Shown here piece after piece: positions 11,549 through 63,895 of a stretch of 64,000 bases of DNA. This DNA comes from Shouchella clausii (GTDB lineage: Bacteria > Bacillota > Bacilli > Bacillales > Bacillaceae_D). The number at the start of each line of letters is the position of its first letter. Position 1 is the first letter of the stretch. The stretch is taken from assembly GCF_002250115.1 (NCBI RefSeq), contig NZ_CP019985.1, forward strand, positions 496,001 to 560,000. The letters run 5' to 3'. Below the pieces are notes generated by a model. The model worked only from the letters and a program-made list of their open reading frames with translations, did no database searches and had not been told where the DNA came from. The translations under genes were made by a program, and so were the position numbers.

Positions 11549-11738
11549 AAGCGTAAGTTTGCGCTTCAGACTGTAGACAAACGCTCGCATCCTTCGTTGC
11601 TCACCTCGTTCATATGCTCATGAACCCACGTTCTATTCGCATCTTCACTCGGTTTCGCGCCTCGGCTGACAAGCGTTTTCTATCAGTCTGAGTGATTTTG
11701 TCGACTTTGTCGACAACCTCAAGCGCAAGTTTGCGCTT
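11549..11738. repeat. CAGACTG element copy A with duplicated flanking palindrome
   Basis: A core of 154 bases (11567-11720) begins CAGACTGTAGACAAACGCT, has an imperfect inverted repeat of that end near 11670-11688, and ends with a stem-loop (TTGTCGAC, TTT, GTCGACAA) then CCTC. An 18-bp palindrome, AAGCGCAAGTTTGCGCTT on the right and the same with one change on the left, sits at both sides (11549-11566 and 11721-11738). The core closely matches copy B at 34788-34942. It has no coding capacity and lies between glnH and glnM. Confidence 0.8.
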
Positions 11739-29080: not shown

Positions 29081-29276
29081 GCTGTCTCCCATCCTTACAA
29101 TATTTCATTTATCTGTCTATTTTTAGTCTACGAAGCATCATAACACCTTCTAGCTTGCCTGGCAAATGATTTTTTTGCCAGAGTGCCACATACTGTTAAC
29201 AGCTATTCAATCTCGAAATCTAGTCAAAATCGCATTTGCACTTTGTCTGAAGATATGTTTCACTTTAAGAAGAACC

Positions 29277-29357
29277 ACTAGGGGAGCCGTCTGGCTGAGA
29301 AAAGCGCTGCTTTGACCCTTTGAACCTGATCTGGCTTGTACCAGCGTAGGGAAGTGG
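29277..29357 (+). promoter_or_regulatory. TPP (THI-box) riboswitch
   Basis: The hallmark segments are all present in order: ACTAGGGGAGCC, GGCTGAGAA, GACCCTTTGAACCTGATCTGG and CCAGCGTAGGGAAGTGG. It lies upstream of tenA on the same strand. When thiamin pyrophosphate binds, downstream expression is expected to fall. Confidence 0.95.
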
Positions 29358-29398
29358 AGAACAATTGCTTATTCATGTAAAGCAACTCTCCTTTCTTT
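29356..29398 (+). terminator. Expression-platform hairpin after the TPP riboswitch
   Basis: GGAGA...TTGCTT pairs with AAGCAA..TCTCC across an eleven-base internal region and is followed by TTTCTTT. This looks like a modest intrinsic terminator controlled by the aptamer, 45 bases before tenA. Confidence 0.55.
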
Positions 29399-34762: not shown

Positions 34763-34967
34763 AAAGAGCCTACCTTTTAGGCTCTTTCAGACTGTAGACA
34801 AACGCTCGCATACTTCGTCGTTTGTCTCGGTCATATGCTCATGAACCCACGTTCTATTCGCATCTTCCCTCGCCTGCACTCCTCGTCTGACAAGCGTTTT
34901 CTATCAGTCTGAGTAACAGTTGTCGACTTTGTCGACAACCTCAAAGAGCCTACCTTTTAGGCTCTTT
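34763..34967. repeat. CAGACTG element copy B with duplicated terminator
   Basis: The core (34788-34942, 155 bases) runs from CAGACTGTAGACAAACGCT to GTCGACAACCTC and resembles copy A throughout. On both sides stands the same 25-base hairpin (34763-34787 and 34943-34967; arms AAAGAGCC and GGCTCTTT), a perfect direct repeat. The hairpin differs from that of copy A, so it belongs to the target, not the element. The outer copy keeps a six-T tail for the minus-strand PHP gene. No ORF is present. Confidence 0.85.
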
Positions 34968-47934: not shown

Positions 47935-48169
47935 TAGGGGGCGGCATGAAAGCCCGCTTTTCCAAACACTCACAGCAACACCCCGTTCCTCGTCAAGACT
48001 TGTCTTTCTGCCACGTTCGTTTGCGCAAAGTGGTTCTCTGCTTTCTTTTCCTGTTCTCGCTTTCTCATTCATTACAATTTCCATCGCCTTTTCCGATTTT
48101 CAACAAAGAAACGATTGACATTGCCGCTTAACAGTTGTAAAGTGAAGCATGCAAGAAAACGATATATTC
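47935..48169. other. Intergenic region before the M-box
   Basis: I see no gene. A sixty-odd-codon open frame overlaps the MarR stop on the plus strand without a ribosome site and is not called. Near 48114 is TTGACA, with TTGTAAAGT about 16-20 bases after it, which may be the mgtE promoter. Confidence 0.4.
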
Positions 48170-48325
48170 CTCGTTAGGTGAGGCTCCTGTGCAGGAGATA
48201 CGCTGCTACCCAAAAATGTCCAAAGACGCCAATGGGTCAACAGAAACCATCGACATAAGGTGGTTTTTAATGTAGCTGGCAATAGCCTATGCCGCACAGT
48301 GCTAAAGCTCTACGAATGGAGGCTA
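48170..48325 (+). promoter_or_regulatory. M-box (ykoK) magnesium riboswitch
   Basis: The core strings are almost those of the B. subtilis example: CGTTAGGTGAGGCTCCT, GGAGATACGCTGCTACCC, AAATGTCCAAAGACGCC, AATGGGTCAACAG, ATCGACATAAGGTG, AGTGCTAAAGCTCTACGA. High Mg2+ compacts the RNA and favours the terminator at 48370-48393, lowering mgtE expression. Confidence 0.96.
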
Positions 48326-48369
48326 TTTTACGCATGCGCGTTTATTCGCGTTTATTTATCATGTGTTCG

Positions 48370-63779: not shown

Positions 63780-63881
63780 AAAGCTCTAAGAGGGCTTTCA
63801 GACTGTAGACAAACGCTCGCATACGTCGTCGTTTGCCGCACTCCTCGTCTGACAAGCGTTTTCTATCAGTCTGAGTGCGGT
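63780..63881. repeat. CAGACTG element copy C, internally deleted
   Basis: A hairpin (AAAGCTCT, AAG, AGGGCTTT, 63780-63798) is followed by CAGACTGTAGACAAACGCTCGCATAC and the right inverted repeat GACAAGCGTTTTCTATCAGTCTGAGT. About 50 internal bases found in A and B are missing. The terminal stem-loop and right-hand hairpin copy are not present; instead a segment resembling the right end of copy A appears in inverted orientation. Confidence 0.65.
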
Positions 63882-63895
63882 TGTCACAAAATCAC

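Follow-up and report, generated by a model that had tools for sequence, protein, structure and literature searches.

Very probably, the MITE at positions 34788..34942 of the window (the whole 64-kb stretch of DNA that was analyzed) is a non-autonomous derivative of the IS1182 family, and the DDE transposase of this group inserts at stem-loops, mostly intrinsic terminators, and duplicates them whole. The general rule for DDE transposases is a target duplication of one fixed length. Here, by contrast, the duplication tracks the hairpin of each target, as seen across 118 distinct sites, mostly in Firmicutes. The element is short and multicopy (155 bp, 79 left ends) and contains no transposase gene. 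The copies in the window, their parts, and the duplicated hairpins (given without strand) are as follows.

34763..34787, no strand: left copy of the terminator hairpin, 25 bp, AAAGAGCCTACCTTTTAGGCTCTTT; present once at the orthologous unoccupied site of each sister genome (G004, G009, and G011)
34788..34942, + strand: whole MITE core, 155 bp, overlapped by no listed ORF of at least 80 aa
34788..34911, + strand: MITE left end (left palindrome), comprising the terminal repeat CAGACTGTAGACAAACGCT and an internal inverted copy ending in CAGTCTG, with compensatory changes between lineages
34920..34938, + strand: right-end hairpin TTGTCGAC-TTT-GTCGACAA, overlapping the right terminal repeat (by sequence)
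34943..34967, no strand: right copy of the terminator hairpin, 25 bp, AAAGAGCCTACCTTTTAGGCTCTTT, followed by more T; identical to the left copy
11549..11566, no strand: left hairpin of copy A, 18 bp, AAGCGTAAGTTTGCGCTT (by flank comparison)
11567..11720, + strand: MITE core of copy A, 154 bp (by sequence)
11721..11738, no strand: right hairpin of copy A, 18 bp, AAGCGCAAGTTTGCGCTT, with 1 mismatch to the left one (by flank comparison)
63780..63798, no strand: third window copy, left hairpin alone (by left-end pattern search)
63799..63885, + strand: third window copy, decayed and shortened MITE core lacking the right end (by left-end pattern search)

A preliminary description of this DNA had reported a 155-base core between two identical 25-base hairpins, which was borne out at 34763-34967, and a copy A with a different 18-base hairpin on both sides, which was likewise found, with one mismatch between its two hairpins. 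The third copy, from 63780, was absent from that description and was found by the left-end search. No ORF of at least 80 aa was listed across the 34788-34942 core or copy A, and no Rfam match reached the gathering score over the MITE copies. The only Rfam matches in the window were an M-box (magnesium) riboswitch at 48163-48327 and a TPP riboswitch at 29270-29369, both ordinary matches. The true ends of the MITE are CAGACTGTAGACAAA and GAGGTTGTCGACAAA, and its right terminus, read inwards, is GAGGTTGTCGACAAAGTC. The "imperfect inverted ends" previously taken for the element termini were misassigned; because the ends of the related IS (see below) resemble those of the MITE, that pair is recognized as the repeat at the left terminus together with an inverted copy of it inside the element.

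In the host genome (G000; a single 4,517,459-base contig), a 24-base pattern with up to 3 mismatches identified 79 MITE left ends, compared to 0 for a reversed-pattern control. A 22-base left-end pattern was present in 7/15 other genomes asked (72 left ends in G004, 79 in G011, 44 in G009, 19 in G006, 11 in G053, 8 in G056, and 1 in G037) and was not found in the other 8, all of the same genus; one of these, G010, contained two diverged matches to the MITE core. The plasmid and phage collections yielded no match to the MITE. A similarity search of G000, in which 40 of 158 candidates were scored, listed 43 matches that were treated as 40 copies, and 0/40 of these were located inside ORFs according to a crude ORF call. 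Shorter versions of about 87-95 bp (L337, L341, and L323) and longer ones also occur, with the left end common to all, and tandem copies exist (L028 and L158).

Direct repeats were identified on both sides of 29/40 G000 copies when the test was loose (slack of up to 8 nt, 20% mismatch) and of 26/40 when it was strict and gapless. Across five genomes, 70/109 MITE rows passed the gapless test, a set in which one place was entered twice (L107 and L161) and the genomes other than G000 were represented by part of their matches. Among the repeats that passed the loose test, those around L014 and L018 barely fold in the form detected. L011 and L025 have partial repeats, and the printed flanks of these two form a hairpin on each side with small changes between them. 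Several copies that failed the gapless test, such as L011, L046, and L098, still display the same hairpin apart from small indels or changes. A left hairpin of at least 8 bp ending no more than 3 nt from the element was present in 49/60 G000 rows (L323 and L331 have identical printed sequences), compared to 662/5000 random window positions. Copies mostly lacking duplicated hairpin flanks would speak against target duplication; a right hairpin was found in 28/32 copies aligned to position 151 or beyond, that is, those bearing a right end, and in 0/8 shorter copies. In 11/40 copies, the alignment did not extend as far as the right end, and no repeat was detected on that side. The idea that right-truncated copies are the remains of a longer element was rejected, and these copies were taken as decayed: 12/14 G000 copies without a gapless repeat had no second copy of the left hairpin within 1.5 kb, and in the remaining two, L011 and L018, the second copy was located at the usual right end. 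In L142 and L026, the left and right hairpins differ by paired, stem-keeping changes, as if selected or corrected.

The preliminary description had also proposed that the hairpin is part of the target site and is copied whole, and this was supported by empty sites with one hairpin and copies with two. At the window site, all three sister genomes (G004, G009, and G011; 3/3) have one hairpin and no element, and the sister alignments of the two sides overlap by exactly 25 bases, which are the hairpin. The joined predicted flanks of the first 14 G000 sites with at most 1 mismatch between their repeats were searched against the three sisters. One hairpin and no element were found at 27/30 fetched sister loci, representing 12/14 sites, although these 27 loci are not all independent because G004 and G011 are close sisters with nearly the same sequences. 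The remaining 3/30 loci, at sites L005 and L013, were occupied, and no sister locus was fetched for L004 or L006. For L234, the script scored no hairpin owing to differing sequence, and the printed sequence is a single hairpin; site L002 in G009 appears in the hit table as a split, occupied alignment. Two hairpins already present at empty sites would contradict duplication, and a single hairpin was found at the empty sites examined. At two sites, sister species carry the terminator loop in opposite orientations on a nearly unchanged stem (L222/L223 versus L002 and L233/L235 versus L009), which points to hairpin-mediated inversion.

A search for a transposase sharing the ends, as suggested in the preliminary description, identified an IS1182-family IS with five copies in G000. 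Ten stretches of this genome matched the IS1182 profile, five of which are this one IS, 1536-1537 bp long with the ends CAGA[C/G]CGTAGACAAA and CAGCCTGTCGACAAAGTC; one copy begins ∼2.5 kb beyond the right edge of the window. The transposase of this IS belongs to the family (NF033551) with a score of 485 bits, compared to a curated cutoff of 270, and contains the Pfam domains DDE_Tnp_1_6, DDE_Tnp_1, and DUF772. Residues D147, D274, and E401 are invariant in a four-sequence transposase alignment, and we assign them as the catalytic triad. Compared by eye, one end of the MITE agrees with the resident IS at 13 or 14 of its first 15 bases, the figure varying among IS copies, and the other end at 15/18 bases. 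The MITE right end begins with GAG and the IS end with CAG, which counts against the parent link. The ends of parent-type IS read roughly CAGNNTGNNGANAAA. Identical hairpins of 21-28 bp flank 4/5 resident copies, the fifth (L078) having no flanking duplication, and the target duplication of the MITE is of the same kind as that of the parent IS. The earlier statement that no named family behaves in this way is therefore incorrect, as an IS1182-family IS of the same genome has similar ends and a similar target habit. A complete match to the resident IS transposase was not found in G004, G009, or G011, where the MITE helper may have been lost, may lie in contig gaps, or may be a different one. 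In the left flank of L096, a different IS1182-type element (with AGGGGTTGTCCC ends) is apparently located beside or within a MITE remnant.

Hairpin duplication extends to other IS with ends of the MITE-like type. Whole hairpins were duplicated in 21/22 IS copies for which both ends were found (from G000, G045, G029, G043, and G022, with L182, L113, L116, and L198-L200 not counted). Named genomes were also scanned; of 495 loci, the 80 best were kept and 75 were examined. Both ends and a flanking 14- to 40-bp repeat were identified in 51/75 by a script that did not consider folding, and the repeats of 50/51 pair over at least 7 bp, compared to 1451/102000 shuffled repeats. The script identified no ends or repeat in 24/75, a class that would include duplications shorter than its 14-bp minimum. 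Most of the 51 loci belong to Firmicutes (Neobacillus, Cytobacillus, Domibacillus, Exiguobacterium, Streptococcus, and Clostridia-type MAGs), and one is from a MAG labeled delta proteobacterium. Among distant IS1182 relatives with other ends, 7/15 loci gave credible ends (AGGGGTTGTCCC, TGAATGAATTTC, TGAGTCAATTTC, AGGGGCTGTATC, and GAGGCCACTG, the last with a 9-bp repeat), and no hairpin duplication was found in these 7, the repeat being absent, 2 bp, or 9 bp. Since IS with the same kind of ends as the MITE also duplicate hairpins, the extent of the duplication appears to be determined by target DNA folding.

The geometry of the duplication was analyzed in 84 rows with a repeat of at most 2 mismatches (7 rows with more were dropped), representing 68 distinct sites. 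The duplication is exactly centered on the hairpin dyad at 62/68 sites and off-center at 6/68. Over 118 distinct sites (the 68-site set and the named loci), the duplication is 18-34 bp long and the hairpin is paired right to the cut ends in 111/118; the stagger is not fixed. The stem could pair at least 3 pairs further outwards in 21/62 sites, so the cut is located near the foot of the G+C-rich stem rather than where the longest possible pairing would end. It tends to fall 1-3 A outside the G+C-rich stem, with 2 leading A's in the duplication at 26 of these 62 sites, 1 at 22, 3 at 8, and 0 at 6. A ruler model, with the cut fixed 10 bp from the loop, was rejected; the arms have a mean of 9.8 (s.d. 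1.1; 62 sites) but reach 16 (L274). The orientation of the element relative to neighboring tandem genes was 15 against 3 in crude ORF contexts in G000. Relative to T-/A-runs, the orientations were 26:15 for the MITE (p 0.12) and 10:8 and 15:23 for two IS sets, and this direct test revealed no consistent orientation bias relative to gene or U-run.

The ends of the elements are often hairpins themselves. An inverted copy of the terminal repeat (at least 11/15 bases) is present inside at least one end of 55/73 IS copies, many of them near-identical, and often forms a terminator-like hairpin with a T-run (e.g., L181). The 18/73 copies without a hairpin end, which include the Exiguobacterium, most Streptococcus, and the clostridial MAG copies, still duplicate hairpins, arguing against a requirement for hairpin ends. 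In the MITE, the left repeat pairs with the internal copy, and the paired positions covary in a chosen set of 25 sequences spanning three genera, where changes on both sides were counted in 37 cells, compared to a shuffled mean of 9.4 (s.d. 2.5) and 0-11 in slid versions. This signal is carried by a few lineages, and covariation measures that count pairs or types are weaker, being reached by 26 and 86 of 500 shuffles. In the left ends of L181, L243, L255, and L278, the transposase-side end is a terminator-like hairpin with a T-run, and a TATAAT box is located just inside that end in L181, L243, and L278. From its sequence, this left-end hairpin looks as if it would block transcription from outside.

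Under the proposed mechanism, a DDE transposase of the IS1182-type group would insert elements at DNA stem-loops, mostly intrinsic terminators, and would presumably mobilize the MITE in trans. The duplication at most sites is the whole stem-loop, with ends symmetric near the stem foot and a length that varies with the hairpin; the cleavage chemistry is one that we infer. After insertion, the near hairpin is usually followed by one to three T's and then CAG, most of the U-run being cut off, and the far hairpin keeps its T-run, in each reading direction. The outward A-run/hairpin and hairpin/T-run junctions would both survive, and neither neighboring gene would lose its terminator. The earlier suggestion that a working terminator remains outside the element is thus supported at the sequence level by the far hairpin, which keeps its U-run. 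With terminators kept, insertions would be nearly harmless and dozens of copies could be tolerated, a simple reason for the pile-up of such elements without broken gene ends. The evidence leaves evenly balanced the broader proposition that a widespread group of IS1182-type transposases is structure-specific, acting at the foot of a stem-loop with a stagger set by the target fold and not by protein geometry. Because the element ends are often hairpins too (55/73 IS copies), the stem-loop foot could mark both donor and target. If the structure-specific reading is true, insertion restores the terminator on both sides.

Target choice could instead depend on terminator activity (a paused RNA polymerase, an RNA hairpin, or an R-loop) and not on DNA folding, with the duplication as a by-product. 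A T- or A-rich run is present beside the hairpin at 99/118 sites, and none of the 40 G000 copies is inside an ORF by the crude call, both in favor of this explanation. However, 19/118 sites have no T-/A-run by the test used, so the fold, not termination, may be what matters. The cuts are also symmetric about the dyad on both strands, a symmetry that one-strand RNA pairing does not need, and orientation relative to the U-run is inconsistent; we consider dependence on terminator activity rather unlikely. Somewhat better placed, if still doubtful, is a transposase dimer that reads the double-stranded palindrome with flexible spacing and without a cruciform. The duplication begins with A in 61/68 sites and ends with T in 59/68, a weak sequence preference that favors such reading, but its length spans 18 to 34 bp and the listed stems have no obvious common sequence beyond the terminal A and T.

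The remaining explanations concern the origin of the two hairpins and the source of the transposase. Hairpins are common in the window (662/5000 random positions have one within 3 nt by a loose test), so the two hairpins might have pre-existed or arisen by recombination, with the element between them by accident or survival. This is highly improbable, because orthologous empty sites with one hairpin contradict it and the flanks copy each other yet differ from locus to locus. Movement of the MITE by a transposase not of the IS1182 type would fit the searches in which MITE-rich sister genomes gave no complete match to the resident IS transposase, but the terminal repeats and target habit agree with those of the resident IS, and we regard it as unlikely. 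In these genomes, target duplication accounts for some "double terminators", and hairpin-length duplication offers a ready test of structure-dependent transposition and of in vivo cruciform formation at terminators.

Bacterial MITEs in general are short, non-coding, multicopy, and intergenic and have terminal inverted repeats, and their usual target duplication is a short fixed repeat. The element described here shares these general traits, but its duplication is a whole hairpin of variable length; bacterial MITEs are reviewed in PMC10969869. ISPpu9 likewise inserts into extragenic palindromes, but its seven copies are located in one kind of repeat (REP; PMC8450116). In a large survey, IS1182 is reported to be over-represented between convergent genes (PMC9208149), and a 2025 paper notes that target duplication may or may not accompany the action of IS1182-related transposases and that they act on either sequence or structure (PMC12056078). 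In the literature searched, no paper was recognized in which an IS or MITE had been observed to duplicate a whole hairpin; ISfinder and most subscription journals lay outside the search and may record such cases. Palindromic targets have been noted for some IS1182 members (Siguier et al., as cited in portions of PMC4923244 and PMC5678879). According to excerpts of the same two papers, IS1272/TnSha1, IS1182-family elements of Staphylococcus, target stem-loops that are often terminators and have little or no common sequence. Insertion of IS1272/TnSha1 with blunt loss of part of the hairpin is described by Furi et al. 2016 (PMC4923244), and Wan et al. 2017 (PMC5678879) report that the stem-loop is lost, wholly or in part, upon IS1272 insertion and that no duplication results. 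Both IS1272 and the MITE thus target stem-loops, but IS1272 loses the stem-loop whereas the MITE keeps and doubles it; replacement of the IS1272 kind was not encountered here, the stem-loop flanking most copies on either side and occurring singly at empty sites. Whole stem-loop duplication is drawn as a hypothetical route, pathway b, in the model in Figure 13 of Wan et al. 2017 (PMC5678879), and, as far as the legend of that figure and the accompanying text describe it, the behavior of the MITE and its related IS is most likely this pathway.
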